Shown: one piece after another, positions 6,555-59,568 of the stretch | Layout: each line of letters begins with the position of its first letter | How positions within the stretch are numbered: position 1 is the first letter of the stretch | Notes under the pieces: model-generated | The model's input: only the letters and a program-made list of their open reading frames with translations | Told to the model about the DNA's origin: nothing | Databases searched by the model: none | Source: Desulfarculaceae bacterium | GTDB lineage: Bacteria > Desulfobacterota > Desulfarculia > Desulfarculales > Desulfarculaceae | NCBI GenBank assembly: GCA_020444545.1 | Contig: JAHLKT010000007.1 | Location: 15,001-79,000, forward strand | DNA: 64,000 nt | Reading direction: 5' to 3' | Made by a program: the position numbers and the translations under genes

Positions 6555-6908
6555 TTGACCAAGAAATTTCTATGGCTGACGTTGGGGAGCCTGGCGGCCT
6601 TGTGCCTGCTGGCCGCGCCGGTCACGGCCGGCGCCGAGGCCCGGGGCAACCTGCGGGTGGTGGTGGTGGGCCATATGGGCGCGCCCCTGGCCCAGGCCGG
6701 GGTGATGCTGGTCGGCCCGGAGCGCCAGCGCAACCGGGAGACCGGCTTCGACGGGGTGGTGGAGTTCCCCCTGATCCCCCAGGGGGTCTACGAGGTCCAG
6801 GTGATCAAGGCCAAGATGCAGCGCGTGGTGCGCACCGGGGTGGTGGTGCGCCAGGGGCAGACCATGACCCTGCGCATCGAGATGCGCCCCCAGGGCCAGG
6901 GCATGTGA
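6555..6908 (+). CDS. Secreted carboxypeptidase-regulatory-like domain protein A
   Basis: A 117-residue exported protein starting with TTG, with AAGGGAG upstream. It has a signal peptide (MTKKFLWLTLGSLAALCLLA, cleavage near VTAGAEA) and one beta-sandwich domain of the carboxypeptidase-regulatory/transthyretin-like type. The repeat is visible as LRVVVVGHMGAPLAQAGVML, then TGFDGVVEFPLIPQGVYEVQ, then a closing strand MTLRIEMRP. In such domains the G.Y.V segment follows a 'P.G.Y' turn. No enzymatic residues are present; a structural or binding role in the envelope is likely. It is followed after eight bases by a paralogue of the same length. Confidence 0.65.
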   Translation: MTKKFLWLTLGSLAALCLLAAPVTAGAEARGNLRVVVVGHMGAPLAQAGVMLVGPERQRNRETGFDGVVEFPLIPQGVYEVQVIKAKMQRVVRTGVVVRQGQTMTLRIEMRPQGQGM

Positions 6909-6916
6909 GGAACGGG

Positions 6917-7270
6917 GTGACACGGCGCGTTTTCCTGGGCCTGGTTCTGGCCTGGCTGGCCCTGGCCGTTGCCACGGCGGCGGCGCCCGCCCGGGCCGGG
7001 CAGGAGGCCAGCCTGGTGGTGGAGGTGAGCAGCTTTCGGGGGGGCTATCTCTTCGGGGTTTCGGCCCGCCTGAGCGGGCCGGACCGGGAGCGCCTGGGGT
7101 TCAGCGACGACCGCGGCCAGGTGCGTTTCGATTCCCTGCCGCCCGGGAGCTACGACTTGGAGCTCAGGCTGCGGGGCTATCGGCCCACCTACCACAGAAG
7201 CATCAGCTTGCGCGCCGGAGAGAGCCTGCGCATCCGGGAAAGCATGCCCAGCCTGGCGGGCCCCCGCTGA
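6917..7270 (+). CDS. Secreted carboxypeptidase-regulatory-like domain protein B
   Basis: A 117-residue paralogue of the preceding gene, probably cotranscribed with it. The GTG at 6917 is chosen because GAGG lies six bases upstream and overlaps the previous stop codon region; GTG at 6905 is also in frame. It has a signal peptide (RRVFLGLVLAWLALAVATAA, cleavage near APARA) and one beta-sandwich domain: SLVVEVSSFRGGYLFGVSA, FSDDRGQVRFDSLPPGSYDL, ending SLRIRESMPSL. The shared pattern of strand, 'D.G.V.F..LP.G.YD', strand marks the carboxypeptidase regulatory-like fold. The exact role is unknown. Confidence 0.65.
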   Translation: MTRRVFLGLVLAWLALAVATAAAPARAGQEASLVVEVSSFRGGYLFGVSARLSGPDRERLGFSDDRGQVRFDSLPPGSYDLELRLRGYRPTYHRSISLRAGESLRIRESMPSLAGPR

Positions 7271-41112: not shown

Positions 41113-41730
41113 ATGAGTTGGGAGCTTTACACCGCCTTTGTGGCGGCCAGCGCCTTGGTGCTGGTGATTCCCGGACCCACGGTGATGCTGGTGACCAGCT
41201 ACGCCCTGGGCCAGGGGCGCGGCACGGCCTGGTACACCGCCGTGGGCGTGGGCCTGGGCGACCTCACCGCGCTCAGCCTCTCCCTGGCCGGGATGGGAGC
41301 CCTGCTCGCCGCCTCGGCCGCCGCCTTTTCCCTGCTCAAATGGGCCGGGGCCGCATACCTAATCTATTTGGGCCTGCGCATGTGGCGCTCGGGCTCGGCC
41401 TTCGCGCCCCGGAGCGGCGCGGCCCCCAGCGGGCGCTCCATGCTGGCCCGCGCCTACGTGGTCACCGCTTTGAACCCCAAGAGCATCGTCTTTTTCGTGG
41501 CCTTTTTGCCCCAGTTCGTGGACCCGGCCTTGCCCCCCTGGCCCCAGCTGATGCTCATGGCGGCCAGCTTCGTGATTCTGGCCGTGGCCAACGCGGTGCT
41601 CTATGCCTGCGCGGCGGGCAGCCTGGCCCGGATGCTGGCCCGCCCCGGCCGCGACCGCCTGCTGGGCCGGGTCGGCGGCGGGGTGCTCATGGGCGCGGGG
41701 CTCATCACCGCGCTGTGGCGGCGGGCGTGA
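41113..41730 (+). CDS. LysE/RhtB-family amino acid exporter
   Basis: A 205-residue inner-membrane exporter with six predicted helices. The N-terminal signature [20 protein letters not shown] is typical of LysE/RhtB, and [19 protein letters not shown] is the second conserved region. The middle contains [20 protein letters not shown], also a family hallmark. The substrate cannot be told from sequence. Its stop overlaps the mnmE start (GTGA), suggesting coupled translation. Confidence 0.88.
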
Positions 41731-43112
41731 ACCAGGGCGGCTACATCCAGGGCGACACCATCGCGGCCATCGCCACGGCCAGCGGGGCAGGGGGCATCGG
41801 CATCCTGCGCATCTCCGGGCCCCAGGCCCGCGCGGTGGGGGAGCGCCTGTTCCGGCCGCTGGGGGAGGGCCCTGCGCCCGCCGAGGAGCCCCGCCGCCTG
41901 GTGCTGGGCCGCGCTTTGGACGGCGAGGGACGCGAGCTGGACCAGGTTCTGGCCGTGTTTTTTGCCGCGCCCCGCTCCTACACCACGGAAGACGTATTCG
42001 AGATACAGGCCCACGGCGGCCCGGCGGTGCTCAAAGAGCTGCTGGCCGCGGCCTTGAGCGCGGGTTGCCGCCTGGCCCGGCCGGGCGAGTTCACCCTGCG
42101 GGCCTATCTGGGCGGCCGTTTGGAGCTTAGCCAGGCCGAGGCGGTGGGGCAGCTGATCAACGCCCACTCGGGGGCCGAGGCCCGTTTGGCCCTGGCCGGT
42201 CTGGCCGGAGGCTTGGCCCGGCGGCTGGCCCCGGTGCGCGCTGCGCTAACCAGCGCGGCGGCGGCGGTGGAGGCGGCCATCGACTTCCCCGAGGAAGCGG
42301 GCGAGATCGCCGGGGCTCCGGTGGCCGCCGGGCTGCGCGAGGGAGTCGTCGCGCCCCTGGACAAGCTGGTGGCCGAGCGCGCCGCGCGGCGGGTTTGGCG
42401 CGAAGGGGCCCTGGTGGTGCTCTGCGGTCGGCCCAATGTGGGCAAAAGTTCCCTGTTCAACGCGCTTTTAGGCAGCGAGCGGGCCATCGTGACCAGCATC
42501 GCGGGCACCACCCGCGACGCCATCGAGGAGGCGGCGATCCTGGGGGGCGTGGTCTGCCGCCTCACCGACACCGCCGGCCTGGGCCTGGAGCCTGGCGAGC
42601 TGGAGGAGCTGGGGCGGGCGGCGGCTCGCGAGCGCCTGGGCGCGGCGGATTTGGCCCTGGTGGTGCTGGACCAGGCCGCGCCGCTGAGCGACGAAGACCG
42701 GGCGGTGCTGGCCGCCACCGAGGGGGTGCCCCGGGTGATCGCGGCCAACAAGAGCGATCTGGACGCGGCCTGGCCCCTGGGCGAGGCGGGGGAGGGCGCC
42801 CTGAGCGTGAGCGCCAAGACCGGCGAGGGACTCACCGAGCTGGCCGAGGCGCTGGGAGGGGCGCTCACCAAGGGCGAAGCCGAGCCCGCCCCCGGCGAGG
42901 CGGTGGCCGGCAAGCGCCAGGCCGAGGCCCTGGCCGCCAGCGCGGAGGCCTCGCGCCGGGCCTTGGCCGGGCTGGAGAGCGAAGACCCTCAGATGGAGCT
43001 GATCTCGCTGGATCTGGCCGTGGCCCTGGCATTTTTGGGGGAAGTGGACGGCATCGACGCGCCCGAGGCGGTGATCGAGGCCATTTTCGACGATTTCTGC
43101 GTGGGGAAGTGA
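41727..43112 (+). CDS. mnmE: tRNA modification GTPase MnmE
   Basis: A 461-residue cytoplasmic GTPase that, with MnmG, forms cmnm5-type uridine at tRNA wobble position 34. GTG start overlapping the lysE-like stop. The tetrahydrofolate-binding N-terminal domain has [20 protein letters not shown] and [17 protein letters not shown]. The G domain carries [15 protein letters not shown] (G1), AGTTRDAI (G2), LTDTAGL (G3) and ANKSD (G4). The C-terminus DDFCVGK keeps the conserved Cys-x-Gly-Lys. The length is typical. MnmG is not in the window. Confidence 0.95.
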
Positions 43113-53115: not shown

Positions 53116-53661
53116 CTAGTCGCCCGAGCCCGGTTTGCCCAGGCGCTCGATCTGCTGGCCCAGCAGGTGCAGGCGCTCGGCGATAAGCGGCTCCTCGTCC
53201 AGCACGTTCAGGTGCCCCCAGCGGGCCATGGCCAAGACCAGGCCCTCGGGCTCCAGGTCGATTAGCGCCACGCCCTCGGGCTCGCCCACCAAAAAGGGAT
53301 ACACTCCTCTCCCGCTGCCTTCTTCGGGCGCGGCGGCCATCATCTGCCGCCGCTGGGCCGGGGTGGCCAGCCAGGGCCGCACCGTGTCGGCGTCGTCCAG
53401 CGGGGCCAGGGCCAACAGCTCGATGGCCTCGCTCTGGCTCAGGCCGTCCAAAATGGCCAACGCCACCGGGGCCTGGGGCCGGGTGATCAGGTACAGGCGC
53501 AGGCGCTCGGCCTCTTGCAGGCGCTCCAGCTCGGCGGTGAAGTGGGCCGGGGTGTAGGCCACATCAGCCGGGCGGAACAGGCTCTGCCACTGCTCGGCAA
53601 AGGCCGCGATGCGACCCAGCTCCCCCTCGGGGTCGAAGCTAACCGGGCTCTTGAGCCGCAC
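53116..53661 (-). CDS. Uncharacterised protein adjacent to ttuA
   Basis: A 181-residue cytoplasmic protein with GTG at 53661, starting within the end of the ttuA-like gene (23-base overlap), hence translationally coupled. The sequence has FDPEGELGRIAAFAEQWQ and TAELERLQEAERLRLYLITR, then GVALIDLEPEGLVLAMARW and LNVLDEEPLIAERLHLLGQQ. No cysteine pairs, ATP motif or membrane segment are visible. It may be a partner of the tRNA thiolation enzyme; that is based only on coupling. Confidence 0.6.
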   Translation of the reverse strand: MRLKSPVSFDPEGELGRIAAFAEQWQSLFRPADVAYTPAHFTAELERLQEAERLRLYLITRPQAPVALAILDGLSQSEAIELLALAPLDDADTVRPWLATPAQRRQMMAAAPEEGSGRGVYPFLVGEPEGVALIDLEPEGLVLAMARWGHLNVLDEEPLIAERLHLLGQQIERLGKPGSGD

Positions 53662-54574
53662 GGGCCTTCCTTTCCTCGCGCTCGGCCGTGCGCTCCAGGA
53701 AGCGGCACACCGTGCAGGTCTCGGCAAAGGTGGGCGTGCCGCAGGTGGGGCAGCGCTGGAAATCCTTCGGCGCGGCGGGCGGCCCGTCCTTTTGCTCCAG
53801 ATAGCCCATATAGAAGTTCATGCAGGTGCCGGGCATGCGGTCTTCCAGCAGGCGCACCGCCTCGGTGTAATAGGGCAGGGTGGCGCCTTTGCTGCGGGGG
53901 CAGTCGCCCCGGGCCACCGGCAGATCGTGGGCTTTGGCGTAGCTCTTAACTTCCGCCGCGTGCAGGCGGCACAAGGGCTTCACCTTCTTGGCGAAGGCTC
54001 CCGGCACTCCGGGCAGGGTGGGCCACTGGTTCTCCAGATAGTGCTCGTGGCGCCGCACCAGGTTTCCCAGCAGGCGCGCCGCCTCGTCGTCCAGGTGGTG
54101 ACCGGTGGCGATAACGTCGCAATCCAGCTCCAGGGCCAGGCGGTTGAGGTGGTAGCGCTTGAGGGTGCCGCACACCGAGCAGAAGGAGCGCTTGTTGGCC
54201 CAGGCGATCTCCTGCACCGTGAACCCGGCCAGCTTAGCCATGTTGAACACATGCAGCGGCGCGCCCAGGCGTTGGGCCATCTCTTGGCACGAGGCCAGGG
54301 ATGCCTCCCCGAATTTGCCGTCGCCCAGCTCCAGGGCCACGTGCACCCCCTCGGCAGGGTAGCCCAGCTCGATGAGCACCTGCCACAGGGCCAGGGAGTC
54401 CTTGCCTCCGCTGACCGCCACCAAGACCCGCTGGCCGAACTCCAGCATGTCGAACTGCTTGATGGCCTTTTCCACCTGCCGCCGGAAGAACACGCCCAAA
54501 CAGTGGTCGCAAAAGCGGGCGTTGTGGCTGGGCAGCCGGTGCCGCGCCGGTTTCTTGCAGCGCGAGCATTTCAT
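53639..54574 (-). CDS. ttuA: TtuA/Ncs6-type tRNA 2-thiolation protein
   Basis: A 311-residue protein (from ATG 54574) of the TtuA/Ctu1 family that activates tRNA by adenylation and inserts sulfur into U54 (or U34). An N-terminal zinc ribbon MKCSRCKK and CDHC, then the P-loop PP-motif VLVAVSGGKDSLAL. Central CSVCGTLKR and GDCPRSKGATLP hold the conserved cysteines thought to coordinate an Fe-S cluster. A C-terminal zinc ribbon (CPTCGTP, CTVC) ends the protein. A TTG start at 54589 is also possible. It overlaps the following gene by 23 bases. Confidence 0.87.
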   Translation of the reverse strand: MKCSRCKKPARHRLPSHNARFCDHCLGVFFRRQVEKAIKQFDMLEFGQRVLVAVSGGKDSLALWQVLIELGYPAEGVHVALELGDGKFGEASLASCQEMAQRLGAPLHVFNMAKLAGFTVQEIAWANKRSFCSVCGTLKRYHLNRLALELDCDVIATGHHLDDEAARLLGNLVRRHEHYLENQWPTLPGVPGAFAKKVKPLCRLHAAEVKSYAKAHDLPVARGDCPRSKGATLPYYTEAVRLLEDRMPGTCMNFYMGYLEQKDGPPAAPKDFQRCPTCGTPTFAETCTVCRFLERTAEREERKARAAQEPG

Positions 54575-54715
54575 GCCTTCGGTGTTCAAATGAAAATACC
54601 CATCTGGCTATGAGGTATAAATATGTAGTATAGTCAATAGAAAATATACCGTCGCTCTCCTGATGTGCCAGCACAAAGAGGGCGTGAGGCATATTAGAAT
54701 CCCGGGGGGGAAATC

Positions 54716-56059
54716 ATGAAAACTAGTTTAGTTGGGATAGTATTGTCTCTTTTAGTTTCTTTAGTGATACCCATAATGGTTTTTGCTGAGTCTGCACAAC
54801 CGAAATTTGTAGTAATGCTGGGAAACGGAAGGAAACTAACTGAATCCCAGCTAAAAAAGATGTTGGATAAACATTACCAATGGATTTGGTCTGACAAAAA
54901 GAGTGGGGCGCAAGCGAATTTTACAGGTGCTATATTGGAAGATGTTGACCTTACGAGAGCATTTCTAGAAGGAGCCAAATTTAATAACACCTTGTTTAAC
55001 AGAGTGCTTTTAAAAGGGATATCTTTCCAAGACACAGTTTTTGTAAAATGTAAATTTCAAGACTCTGATTTAAGTGATACGTTCTTCGTAAACTCAAAGT
55101 TTGAGGACAGTGTGTTTTCGAACACCAAATTAACAAACGCCTTTTTTAAAAAGGTTACAGCAAATAATTGTAACTATATAATGTGTGATCTCACAATGAC
55201 TGCATTGAACCAGACGAATTTTAATAAATCGATGTTTCATGAAGTTCTGTGGTATAGAGCGAAGATATCTTCAGCTACGTTTGCCGGAACTGTAATTACA
55301 AAAAATAAATTTAAAGAATGTTTTATAGATAGAGGGAATGTCCGCACCCCCGATGATTTAGAATACGAAGTCGACTTCTCAAAAGCATTCTTTGTCGATA
55401 ATGACTTCGAGGGGACGGCCCTGGACATTATCAATGAAAAAATCCCAAATATAAGTTTTCTGGCAAGTACACATAATCTTGACTTGTTAACCTACCGTTT
55501 GTTCCCAGTTTGTCTTATAAAATTGCGCAATCTTGCCTTTTCTAGCGGCTTAAGTACCCAGGAGCGCCAGCTTACGTATGCAATTATGCGAAATGACCGC
55601 AAAAAAAATTATGGCCATTTTGAGGGGCTAGTCGCATACGTTATTTTTGAATTGCCTAGCGGCTGGGGCATGAATCCTGGCCGTCCGCTGTCAATAATGC
55701 TATTTCTCATACCGTTTTTTGCCGTTGCTTACTGGTTCGCCCTCCGTGGAACCGACGGGGATGGAATCTACCGCGTATGGAGCCCTACACGAATCTTAAA
55801 AAAACCTGAGGAGGAAGGCGTTGAACGGCTGGGCGCTGGCAAAGCCTGGCGCAACGCCCTCTACTTCTCCATCCTTTCCGCCTTCCACATCGGCTGGCGC
55901 GACCTTAACGTAGGCAACTGGATCTCGCGCATGCAACCCCGCGAGTACACCCTGCGGGCCACTGGCTGGGTGCGCGTGGTCTCTGGCATCCAGTCCCTGA
56001 TCAGCGTGTATCTTCTGGCCCTGGCGGTGCTCACCTACTTCGGCCGCCCCTTCGGCTAG
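54716..56059 (+). CDS. Exported pentapeptide-repeat protein with C-terminal membrane region
   Basis: A 447-residue protein. It begins with a signal peptide (VGIVLSLLVSLVIPIMVFAE), then pentapeptide-like repeats from about 60 to 220 (for example ANFTGAILEDVDLTRAFLEG and FKDSDLSD-like repeats) forming a right-handed quadrilateral helix. The C-terminal part (about 300-447) has two to three membrane segments (SIMLFLIPFFAVAYWFAL and VSGIQSLISVYLLALAVLTY) and a pore-loop-like region (FSILSAFHIGWRDLNVGNWI), reminiscent of ion-channel pentapeptide proteins. Codon usage switches at about 55800 from AT-rich to GC-rich, implying a chimera. Function unknown. Confidence 0.68.
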   Translation: MKTSLVGIVLSLLVSLVIPIMVFAESAQPKFVVMLGNGRKLTESQLKKMLDKHYQWIWSDKKSGAQANFTGAILEDVDLTRAFLEGAKFNNTLFNRVLLKGISFQDTVFVKCKFQDSDLSDTFFVNSKFEDSVFSNTKLTNAFFKKVTANNCNYIMCDLTMTALNQTNFNKSMFHEVLWYRAKISSATFAGTVITKNKFKECFIDRGNVRTPDDLEYEVDFSKAFFVDNDFEGTALDIINEKIPNISFLASTHNLDLLTYRLFPVCLIKLRNLAFSSGLSTQERQLTYAIMRNDRKKNYGHFEGLVAYVIFELPSGWGMNPGRPLSIMLFLIPFFAVAYWFALRGTDGDGIYRVWSPTRILKKPEEEGVERLGAGKAWRNALYFSILSAFHIGWRDLNVGNWISRMQPREYTLRATGWVRVVSGIQSLISVYLLALAVLTYFGRPFG

Positions 56060-56089: not shown

Positions 56090-56560
56090 CTGGCCTCGTT
56101 TCTTTCTCTTTTCTTGTCCTCCCAACCACCCCCCGCCGGGGTCGCCTCGGGGCCGGCATCTCCCCGCGCCGCCAAAGCACCTATCCTGCCCACCCACCAA
56201 AAATGAAAAGCGGACCTACGTCCGCTTGCCTCCTCCGCGACTCCGCCCCGCCGGCGAGCCATTCTATTTAAGCAACCACTGTTATGCCGGCTCAGGGTGA
56301 CCCCGACAAAAAACCGCTTTTTCTTTTTTTATTCTTCTCTTTTTCTCTCTTCTCTTTGCTCCAGGCCGGAGACGACACCAGGGAAGATCGCCACGGAGCG
56401 GCGGACAAGCTTCCCCTTTCTCCCACCATCCTTGGCCGCCGCTCCTCGCGATGACCTTCTATTTCTGGATGAAAAACCAAGGGCGGGGATAAACCCCGCC
56501 CTACATTCTAAATAGGTACTGTTGGGTTTCGCTTCGCTCTACCCAACCTACACTTTTCCT
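56090..56560 (+). repeat. Mosaic intergenic repeat cluster 6
   Basis: One unit in plus orientation after the pentapeptide gene: pyrimidine tract, CACCCCCCGCCGGGGTCGC, GGGCCGGC, GACCTACGTCCGCTTGCC, GCCGGCTCAGGGTGACCCC, then AAAAAA and a T/C-rich tract. At about 56379-56452 the GATCGCCACGGAGCGGCGG and GCTCCTCGCGATGACC modules follow. GGCGGGGATAAACCCCGCC is at about 56482-56500, and the GGTTTCGCTTCGCTC palindrome of the ACCCAAC family at 56520-56550. Confidence 0.78.
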
Positions 56561-56567
56561 TGCGACC

Positions 56568-57533
56568 CTACGCCCCGGCTTGCATCTCCACCCTCGGCGC
56601 GCTCCATCCCAGCGGCGCGACCGCCACCTGCTCCACCACCCGGGAGCTCTGCTTGCACAAGAGCCCCACCAGGAACTCGATGGCCTTTACCGAGGCGATG
56701 GGCGCGTAGGAGTGCACCCAGGCCGCCTGCTCGGCGCAGGTGTCGGCCTGGGCTTCGCCCGAGGCCAGGCGCTCCATGAGCTGGCCGTGATACTCCAGGG
56801 TGGCGACCAGGGCGTCCTCCAGGAAGGGCCGCTTGGTCAGATCCACCGCGCCGTTGTGGCTGAGCACCGCCCGGCGCGCGGGCAAAATGGCCAGCTTCTG
56901 GATGCTCAGGCAGTAGTCCTGCAACCCCGAGAAGTAGTTGGGCCAGATGATCTCCCGGCCGGGGTCGAAGTAGCCGGCCATGTCGCCCAGGGCCAAGACC
57001 TGCTCGCCGCTTTCGTAATAAGAGGTGTGGCAGGCCGAGTGGCCGGGGGTGAGGAGCACGTGCCATTCCACTCCCTGGCCCAGGGCGATGCGCGCCCCTT
57101 CCTCCACCACCACGTCCACCGAGAAGTCGTACTCCTCCAGCACCGGCGGCAGCTCGTCGATCACCCCCATGCCCACCAAAATCTTGCTGATCATGCGGTC
57201 GGCCGGGAGGAAGCTTTCCAGATGCTTGGGGTGGGCCAGGGCCGCGGCCGCCTTGGGGCTGGCCATGACCTTGAGGTGGGGCCACAGCTTGCGCAGGCGG
57301 GGCACCGCGCCGATGTGGTCGGCGTGGGTGTGGGTCAGGGCCATGTAGGCGATGCGCTCGGGCGCGACGCCCAGCATCTTCACCTGCTCGGCGATCAGCT
57401 CGGCGGTGCCGCCGGTGCCGCCCTCGATGATCATGCCCTGGTCCCCCAGGGAGAGGTACACCGGGTAAAAGGGTGTGCCCAGCTGGTACAGATGTTCGCT
57501 GATCTTGATGGGTGCTGGGATGTCGGTCAACAT
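56568..57533 (-). CDS. MBL-fold metallo-hydrolase
   Basis: A 321-residue metallo-beta-lactamase-fold hydrolase. The zinc motif is LTHTHADHIGA (HxHxDH, near 80-86), with TPGHSACHTSYY (second His), LALGDMAGYF (bridging Asp) and AVLSHNG (third His). ATG at 57533 has GGAGAA eight bases upstream. Substrate unknown; the sequence is closest to glyoxalase II or quorum-type lactonase-like MBLs, but that cannot be decided. Its 5' part is duplicated upstream (59302-59568), with a FAD-oxidase gene between. Confidence 0.87.
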   Translation of the reverse strand: MLTDIPAPIKISEHLYQLGTPFYPVYLSLGDQGMIIEGGTGGTAELIAEQVKMLGVAPERIAYMALTHTHADHIGAVPRLRKLWPHLKVMASPKAAAALAHPKHLESFLPADRMISKILVGMGVIDELPPVLEEYDFSVDVVVEEGARIALGQGVEWHVLLTPGHSACHTSYYESGEQVLALGDMAGYFDPGREIIWPNYFSGLQDYCLSIQKLAILPARRAVLSHNGAVDLTKRPFLEDALVATLEYHGQLMERLASGEAQADTCAEQAAWVHSYAPIASVKAIEFLVGLLCKQSSRVVEQVAVAPLGWSAPRVEMQAGA

Positions 57534-57757
57534 GGTTCGTTCTCCGGTGTACGTTCGGTTTATGCCGTGCGGGCAAAAGAAAAGGGCCGTGAGCAGCTTG
57601 TGCCCACGGCCCTGAAGGTCTATTTCGACCCGATCAGCCCATGGGCGCACCTATAAAGCCGCTAAAGACGAAGTAGCTAAAGAAGGTGCGGGACTGATGG
57701 GTTATCATGACTATCCGGTTCGCTCCGAAAGTTCTAGTTTCCCCGAAAGATATGCTC
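57285..57757. repeat. Direct repeat A (left copy)
   Basis: From about 57285 to 57638 this sequence is almost identical to 59320-59673 (offset 2035 bases). It covers the first 85 codons of the MBL gene, its ribosome-binding site and about 100 bases upstream. After a 95-base segment present only here, similarity resumes near 57735-57757. The pair encloses the FAD-oxidase gene. Confidence 0.9.
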
Positions 57758-59301: not shown

Positions 59302-59568
59302 TTATATAAGGAGGGGTCGCAGCTTGCGCAGGCGGGGCATCGCGCCGATGTGGTCGGCGTGGGTGTGGGTCAGGGCCATGTAGGCGATGCGCTCGGGCGC
59401 GACGCCCAGCATCTTCACCTGCTCGGCGATCAGCTCGGCGGTGCCGCCGGTGCCGCCCTCGATGATCATGCCCTGGTCCCCCAGGGAGAGGTACACCGGG
59501 TAAAAGGGTGTGCCCAGCTGGTACAGATGTTCGCTGATCTTGATGGGTGCTGGGATGTCGGTCAACAT
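59302..59568 (-). pseudogene. Truncated duplicate of the MBL-fold hydrolase gene
   Basis: An 88-codon remnant identical to the first 85 codons of the MBL gene at 57533, except for Val-to-Met and a few C-terminal changes (AMPRLRKLRPLLI). It retains HTHADH but lacks the remaining two thirds, so it cannot be active. The ribosome-binding site and leader are also duplicated, so it may still be translated. Confidence 0.85.

Follow-up and report, generated by a model that had tools for sequence, protein, structure and literature searches.

In the 64,000-nucleotide stretch of Desulfarculaceae DNA that was analyzed (hereafter, the window), an intact ORF encodes a 447-residue protein with the parts listed in Table 1. 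The cleavage site of the N-terminal signal peptide was assigned by eye. The repeats passed the curated Pfam cut-offs for two pentapeptide families (PF00805, E 8e-12, and PF13599, E 5e-14), with scores of 44.9 versus 20.2 and 52.5 versus 38 bits, and the full protein matched repeat families only, plus the repeat-like SV2 luminal domain. AlphaFold2, supplied with six alignment rows, modeled the rod with confidence and assigned medium confidence to TM1, a short helix at residues 377-389, and TM2. The C-terminal ~130 residues, termed the membrane module, adopted the same helices when modeled alone as in the full-length model; mean pLDDT was weak in both cases (60.7 for the full protein and 58.7 for the module).

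Table 1. Features of the gene and its surroundings (positions in the window)
Feature	Position	Strand	Remarks
Whole gene, 447 aa	54716..56059	+	Signal peptide, cap, pentapeptide rod, linker, channel-like membrane module
Signal peptide, aa 1-24	54716..54787	+	Core LVGIVLSLLVSLVI, Kyte-Doolittle 3.06; VFA precedes E25
Cap, ~aa 35-65	54818..54910	+	Homologous to the DG..I...L..IL..H..W region of other members
Pentapeptide-repeat rod, ~aa 66-205	54911..55330	+	Pfam; AlphaFold2 pLDDT ~77-92 over aa 71-170
Linker, aa 206-321	55331..55678	+	Alignable with closer relatives from ~aa 243
TM1 (predicted), aa 322-344	55679..55747	+	AlphaFold2 models of whole protein and module
Basic loop, aa 345-376	55748..55843	+	Cytoplasmic by prediction; loop charges
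GC3 change-point, codons 370-376	55826..55844	+	Change-point fit
Pore-helix-like segment, aa 377-389 (AWRNALYFSILSA)	55844..55882	+	AlphaFold2, profile alignment
Filter-like HIGWRDL, aa 391-397	55886..55906	+	Aligned to TLGFGDI of one ordinary pentapeptide potassium channel
Arginine-rich loop, aa 398-417	55907..55966	+	Strongly conserved across members
TM2 (predicted), aa 418-442	55967..56041	+	Followed by the last residues and the stop
Low-GC stretch, intergenic and codons 1 to ~371	54590..55830	+	GC3 ~0.40 in the gene
PP-loop ATPase (TtcA/TtuA-like), divergent neighbor	53639..54589	-	Adjoins the gene also in G003, G013, and G016
Metallo-beta-lactamase-fold (MBL-fold) gene	56568..57650	-	Downstream neighbor
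Dispersed repeat copy	56104..56560	.	Directly 3' of the gene

Further neighbors that were scanned encode a 203-residue protein without a Pfam match, an FAD oxidoreductase, and a LysR regulator. Beyond the FAD oxidoreductase gene, an 88-residue ORF (59302-59568, minus strand) encodes a repeat of the beginning of the MBL-fold protein, which suggests a truncated tandem duplicate of that gene. Besides the genomes in which the PP-loop ATPase gene directly adjoins the family gene, G010 carries the two ~21 kb apart, and in six others (G001, G002, G004, G005, G006, and G009) the family gene was found neither near the PP-loop gene nor elsewhere. The G006 matches to the two genes flanking the locus, those for the MBL-fold protein and the PP-loop ATPase, are separated by ~190 bp. 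In the sister genome G001, the gene's place is taken by a gene for a secreted-looking 344-residue protein without a Pfam match (L073, 8102-9136); beside it, a 34-base stretch, 91% identical to the window gene's end, is probably a remnant of that 3' end. We read the locus as an old one that has undergone repeated replacement of its content, the crossovers falling within or close to the constant 3' end. The downstream dispersed repeat, which consists of T/C-rich runs with the core GGGTGACCCCGACAAAAAA, could promote exchange at the locus. It has at least 52 matches in the genome, mostly on contigs C7, C8, C1, and C3, a lower bound obtained from the best 40 of 76 first-look candidates; other copies in the window are at 51.7-52.4, 38.9-39.3, and 1.8-2.4 kb, and the element is present in G001 as well.

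A protein search of 60 relatives, including the own genome, yielded matches in 27, mostly to the repeats only; the module itself was found, besides the own genome, in G003, G010, G013 (twice), and G016. Named records among the relatives belong to Desulfocarbo indianensis, two Desulfarculus MAGs, one Candidatus Scalindua MAG, and one Kiloniellaceae MAG, and the full-length relatives are found in genomes of three phyla. A profile of the module recovered it from at least six of the 395 phylum genomes, a count that includes the own genome and the G365 fragment, and from at least two of 385 genomes of the class to which the Kiloniellaceae MAG belongs, both values being lower bounds from scoring the best eight first-look candidates per genome. 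In the order of Scalindua, the full module was present in three of 62 genomes (G438, G868, and G872), along with two short matches. By these counts, the family is rare and scattered. We found no description of this protein plan among the titles and abstract openings listed by searches of the open PMC library.

Thirteen members, including the window gene, were aligned from the own phylum, the order of Scalindua, and the class of the Kiloniellaceae MAG; the G365 fragment (L042/L072), which lies at a contig end and has stops within the match, and the short matches in G831 and G880 were excluded. The complete members follow one plan (signal peptide, cap, pentapeptide rod, membrane module) and range from 364 to 782 residues, with the rod being the most variable part. 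Twenty-two alignment columns are invariant. In eight members, the named Scalindua and Kiloniellaceae proteins among them, the last 65 residues are nearly invariant, with a C-terminal consensus of approximately YFSxLSAFHIGWRDLNVGxWIxRxQPREYTLRATGWVRxxSGxQSL; the C-terminal end is more variable in G064, G100, G868, and G872. Convergent to the Kiloniellaceae member, amid phage-family genes, is a gene (L036, 8599-11025, minus strand) for an 808-residue protein with pentapeptide-like repeats and a different, apparently membrane, C-terminal part.

The membrane module gave no match above cut-off in Pfam (the sole row at E up to 10 was DUF6684, E 1.4), and Ion_trans_2 (PF07885) produced no row for either the protein (E up to 1) or the module (E up to 10). 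Among solved structures, none matched the module by sequence at E up to 1, and matches obtained with the full protein and its alignment were confined to the repeat region. The AlphaFold2 model placed two long helices around a short one, bearing out the pore-like loop between helices that the preliminary description had proposed; the order that it had given (signal, repeats, then the loop between helices) likewise agrees with the signal-peptide-like start, the Pfam repeats, and the predicted helices. A Foldseek search with the module model returned Kv1.2, GluK2, KcsA, Kir, and Kv1.3 at E values of 0.1 to ~1, the best being 0.1 and none falling below 0.001. Among the 50 matches listed, 39 were pore-loop channels by title, nine were unrelated (influenza polymerases among them), and two were short chains of glutamate-receptor complexes, possibly auxiliary subunits. 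VIA-align, which re-examined Foldseek's own list of 976 chains, placed 46 pore-loop channels (by title) among its 50 listed matches; the other four titles were uninformative. KcsA entries aligned over 83-93 residues at ~2.9-4.3 Å with Z scores near 7 (e.g., 3fb5 with 85 residues, 3.1 Å, and Z 7.1), values that stay under 8 for this weak model and that, as the program warns, can reflect merely a common arrangement.

Ordinary pentapeptide potassium channels provided a further comparison. They were located with a C-terminal query that also catches plain channels and had matches in 42 of the 345 phylum genomes; 31 loci were considered (L021 and L110-L139), a motif filter retained 21, and 19 were aligned. 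On a wider pattern, six of the ten filtered-out loci (L115, L116, L117, L122, L124, and L127) have TLGFGD and a basic tail, and four (L110, L111, L118, and L136) gave no match even then; L021, from G008, scores above the Ion_trans_2 cut-off. The profile alignment placed YFSILSAFHIGWRD of the family over YYSVVTFSTLGFGD of the 19 channels with a score of 27.4 and an hhalign probability of 21. This score exceeded those of all 100 block-shuffled profiles (maximum 25.9, which is close) and all 100 column-shuffled profiles (maximum 19.0), and the two reversed profiles scored 13.2 and 11.9. In this weak model, the module resembles the TM1-pore helix-filter loop-TM2 arrangement of the pore-loop channel fold.

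The filter-like segment departs from that of potassium channels. The motif HIGW[R/K]D occurs in eight of the 13 members, the others having HIGWRE, HLGWRE, HIGYLN (two members), and NINWRG; neither GYG nor GFG stands at the filter position in any of the 13. Arginine or lysine (11 members) or leucine (two members) takes the place of the second GYG glycine, which makes the usual potassium selectivity unlikely. This substitution of a glycine that potassium filters require, together with the post-filter loop being among the most conserved parts of the family, would also suit a module that derives from a pore-loop channel and no longer conducts, serving instead to anchor and oligomerize a periplasmic rod and to signal to a cytoplasmic partner through the arginine-rich loop. 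We regard this non-conducting alternative as unlikely, given that HIG is kept in 11 of the 13 members, which a mere anchor would not need, and that glutamate receptors conduct although they lack GYG.

The predicted orientation of the module is based on the start of the protein and on its loop charges. Signal-peptide-like starts are present in 11 of the 12 members with a readable start (Kyte-Doolittle values of 1.94-3.06). The twelfth, from G587 (L066, 507-1850), has such a stretch further upstream, in frame with the rest but separated from it by one stop; because of this stop, the gene may be a pseudogene or reflect an assembly error. None of the 21 ordinary pentapeptide channels has a signal peptide beside its repeats; a hydrophobic stretch does occur in two of them, but far upstream and in a frame that is probably over-extended. 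Loop charges were compared between 13 family rows and 19 ordinary-channel rows. The mean number of lysine plus arginine residues was 7.9 in the family versus 0.5 in ordinary channels for the loop between TM1 and the pore helix, 4.8 versus 0.3 for the loop between the filter and TM2, and 0.9 versus 3.0 for the C-tail. The family loops are longer than those of the ordinary channels in this comparison; per 10 residues, the values for the three segments were 1.7, 1.6, and 1.9 in the family and 0.4, 0.2, and 4.4 in ordinary channels. Ahead of TM1, both groups carry positive charge (net +2.7 in the family), so the two sides of the membrane do not separate neatly by the positive-inside rule.

If the rod is exported and the chain then crosses the membrane twice, the pore loop comes to lie on the cytoplasmic side, and the signal-peptide-like starts together with the reversed loop charges predict such an inverted topology. 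The homologous pentapeptide channels are, by their charges, oriented the other way, and residues 301-315 ahead of TM1 form a predicted helix with a hydrophobic run; the family might accordingly share the ordinary orientation, with the pore loop outside as in KcsA, if the N-terminal stretch were not an export signal or if the chain made an extra crossing. We hold this to be quite improbable in view of the signal-peptide-like stretches that begin 11 of the 12 readable members, precede the twelfth, and are lacking beside the repeats of ordinary channels, and of the charge reversal. The stated resemblance to ion-channel pentapeptide proteins appears to be right with respect to fold, but the ordinary channels examined have no signal peptide at the repeats and carry opposite loop charges.

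The gene is also set apart by its base composition. Within the gene, most 300-base segments have a GC content of 0.32-0.43, compared with ~0.66 for the two flanking genes, with recovery near the gene end, and the 2-kb block containing the gene has a GC content of 0.495 versus 0.567-0.694 across the 31 other blocks of the window. The low-GC stretch begins upstream of the gene start, at ~54590. GC3 steps from 0.40 to 0.89 at the change-point listed in Table 1 with a log-likelihood ratio of 31.8, a value reached in none of 500 shuffles (maximum 9.2), and the position of the step is constrained to ~ten codons (369-378). A two-step fit added a milder rise at codon 206 (GC3 of 0.33, 0.48, and 0.89). 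These measurements confirm the abrupt switch reported earlier and its placement at about 55800, which was correct to within ~45 bases; the GC-rich end measures 71-77 codons instead of the 85 that had been given. Among 37 ORFs of the window (non-overlapping, ATG-started, and at least 200 codons long), the change-point ratio of the gene ranked second. ORFs 41340-43112 and 6572-7270 ranked first and third (ratios of 33.7 and 27.6), with switches at codons 125 and 111 and putative true starts near codons 139 and 116, respectively; in both, the start looks over-extended, with the switch just ahead of the true start. The protein that begins at codon 139 is one that we take to be MnmE-like.

The preliminary description interpreted the switch as acquired repeats joined to a native membrane tail. 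This division is not supported, as low GC extends over the linker, TM1, and the loop as well, which are homologous to those of the relatives. With TM1 and the linker in the low-GC part and homologous to the family, the idea that a native membrane protein had been fused to foreign repeats was rejected; the relatives are full-length, so the parts of the protein belong together. Widespread full-length homologues with the same composition pattern had been named as evidence against a chimera, and the pattern was found in part. The plan recurs, and a significant 3'-ward GC3 rise (0 or 1 of 200 shuffles as large) is present in five of 11 other genes (G003, G010, G013a, G016, and G587); this comparison covered 12 genes, L067 from G064 being left out for its missing start. 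Of the remaining genes, that of Scalindua has a weaker rise (5 of 200 shuffles), that of Kiloniellaceae has its only change close to the start (4 of 200), and G013b, G100, G868, and G872 have no significant step (20 to 152 of 200). The distance of the step from the gene end differs among genomes, being 71 codons in the window gene, 143 in G003, 179 in G010, 110 in G013a, 174 in G016, and 59 in G587.

Because the breakpoints vary among genomes and the locus turns over, the window gene is probably still a mosaic. We infer a recombination event behind the composition step, in which an AT-rich allele of the same gene would have replaced all but the last 70-odd codons at this locus. Codon identities with G003 do not establish vertical descent of the last block: this block gave 0.72 where codon use predicts 0.67 (z 2.0), and the region upstream of it has much the same z value (0.40 versus 0.32 expected, z 2.1); the PP-loop gene gave 0.69 versus 0.60 (z 3.9). 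Fourfold-site identity with G003 (0.71 versus 0.67 for the neighbor gene) was considered as proof of this descent and discarded, being mostly shared codon bias. No donor for the low-GC part was found, the search yielding just three weak matches to phage records (21-25% identity), and this part had no DNA match in plasmids. The module had no match in plasmids at E 1e-5 or in phages at E 0.01 and no confirmed match in IMG/VR, and plasmid or phage carriage was rejected on these searches.

The switch might instead be an old property of the family that arose with no recombination, the 5' part drifting toward, or being selected for, low GC. The same GC3 rise in five of 11 other members speaks for such an origin, and synonymous codon identities close to the codon-bias expectation are compatible with it; we nevertheless consider it somewhat unlikely: drift or selection would have to account for a step confined to ~ten codons in the window gene, for its shifting distance from the gene end, for four members with no significant step, and for a sister genome that seems to retain only ~34 nt of the 3' end next to another gene. 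Under the mosaic interpretation, the uneven composition of the gene suggests that the exported part has been exchanged repeatedly while the 3' end stayed constant.

Combining these results, we propose that the protein is an exported pentapeptide protein forming an inverted, tetrameric, putative ion-passing pore-loop channel and that its gene is a mosaic, a reading that we give about an even chance of being right as a whole. The signal peptide would send the rod to the periplasm; TM1 would then cross inwards and TM2 outwards, with the HIGWRDL-bearing pore loop and the arginine-rich loop on the cytoplasmic side, upside down with respect to KcsA. Assembly as a tetramer is most likely. The periplasmic rod may sense a change of the envelope or a bound ligand, upon which the pore would open and ions would pass. 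The architecture, the family, the charge reversal, the fold resemblance of a weak model, and the composition step were observed; the topology, tetramer, conduction, gating, and role are suppositions.

With respect to role, the gene surroundings point different ways across the members. The Scalindua member is located near LTXXQ/heavy-metal-resistance genes, which we take to be Spy/CpxP-like, and near the gene for an ECF sigma factor whose zinc-finger neighbor probably encodes an anti-sigma factor; a role in envelope stress is our first guess. The stress or immunity channel suggested in the preliminary description is thus one possibility among several. Other surroundings recall phage defense. 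The Kiloniellaceae member lies amid phage-family genes (terminase, minor tail, and replication initiation), the G587 member adjoins a gene that weakly matches a restriction-endonuclease family (E 1e-5, 25.6 bits versus a cut-off of 27), and the protein has weak matches to HalA of the Hailong system, so that a channel for phage defense or superinfection exclusion, comparable in purpose to HalA, may be envisaged. Such a role seems to us a long shot. The match to the NCBIfam HalA model (NF051894) reached 41.7 versus the required 250 bits, with the best stretch at residues 65-136, that is, in the repeats only; the sole PADLOC row was at chance level (E 0.05); no HalB-like nucleotidyltransferase was found among the scanned neighbors in the window, the immediate ones being the PP-loop ATPase and MBL-fold genes; and the Scalindua gene has the different surroundings given above. 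The HalA structure 9nyi ranked 45 in the full-length fold search with an rmsd of 18.1 Å over 427 columns, and an overall fold match was rejected on this value.

Several known systems share some of these features. Hailong HalA has pentapeptide repeats in common with the window protein, with a weak match in both sequence and fold, and a C-terminal membrane part; the window protein differs in having a signal peptide. Two reports on Hailong describe its effector as being kept shut by single-stranded DNA oligomers (PMC12657230 and PMC12265719), and no partner of this kind was found for the window gene. The pentapeptide potassium channels that combine Pentapeptide and Ion_trans_2 domains, such as L021, are built like the family from a rod followed by TM1, pore helix, filter, and TM2, and in L021 even the stretch ahead of the repeats is similar; they differ from the family by a TLGYGD or TLGFGD filter, neutral to acidic outer loops, and a basic C-tail. 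The pore domains of KcsA, NaK, and Kir share the predicted TM1-P-TM2 arrangement (Z ~7) and are oriented opposite to what is predicted for the family. The potassium filter of the KcsA/NaK/Kir type is TVGYGD, in place of which the family has HIGWRD-like sequences.

The closest parallel in topology is with GluR0 and the ionotropic glutamate receptors, of which GluK2 and GluA1 were among the structural matches of the module. As described in PMC13099474, GluR0 has its N-terminal domain outside and an inverted two-helix pore-loop module, with a topology established by PhoA fusions, and the ligand-binding domain of these receptors lies on both sides of the pore. The family shares a predicted outside N-terminal domain and an inverted pore-loop module with them but has a pentapeptide rod instead of the ligand-binding domain and ~5 residues after TM2, and, unlike GluR0, it lacks a GYG filter. 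On this basis the family may represent an undescribed class of bacterial pore-loop proteins that was inverted independently of GluR0 and the animal glutamate receptors, with a variable-length rod for the ligand-binding domain and a HIGWRD-like loop for the potassium filter, a tentative proposal to which we assign slightly less than an even chance. If it is true, one protein plan occurs in both orientations, and the two share genomes, because G013, G064, and G100 each encode an ordinary pentapeptide channel (L112, L116, and L117, respectively) together with a family member. Few bacterial examples bear on how pore-loop channels became inverted in glutamate receptors; the family would supply related channel pairs in both orientations, along with a new filter of measurable ion preference.
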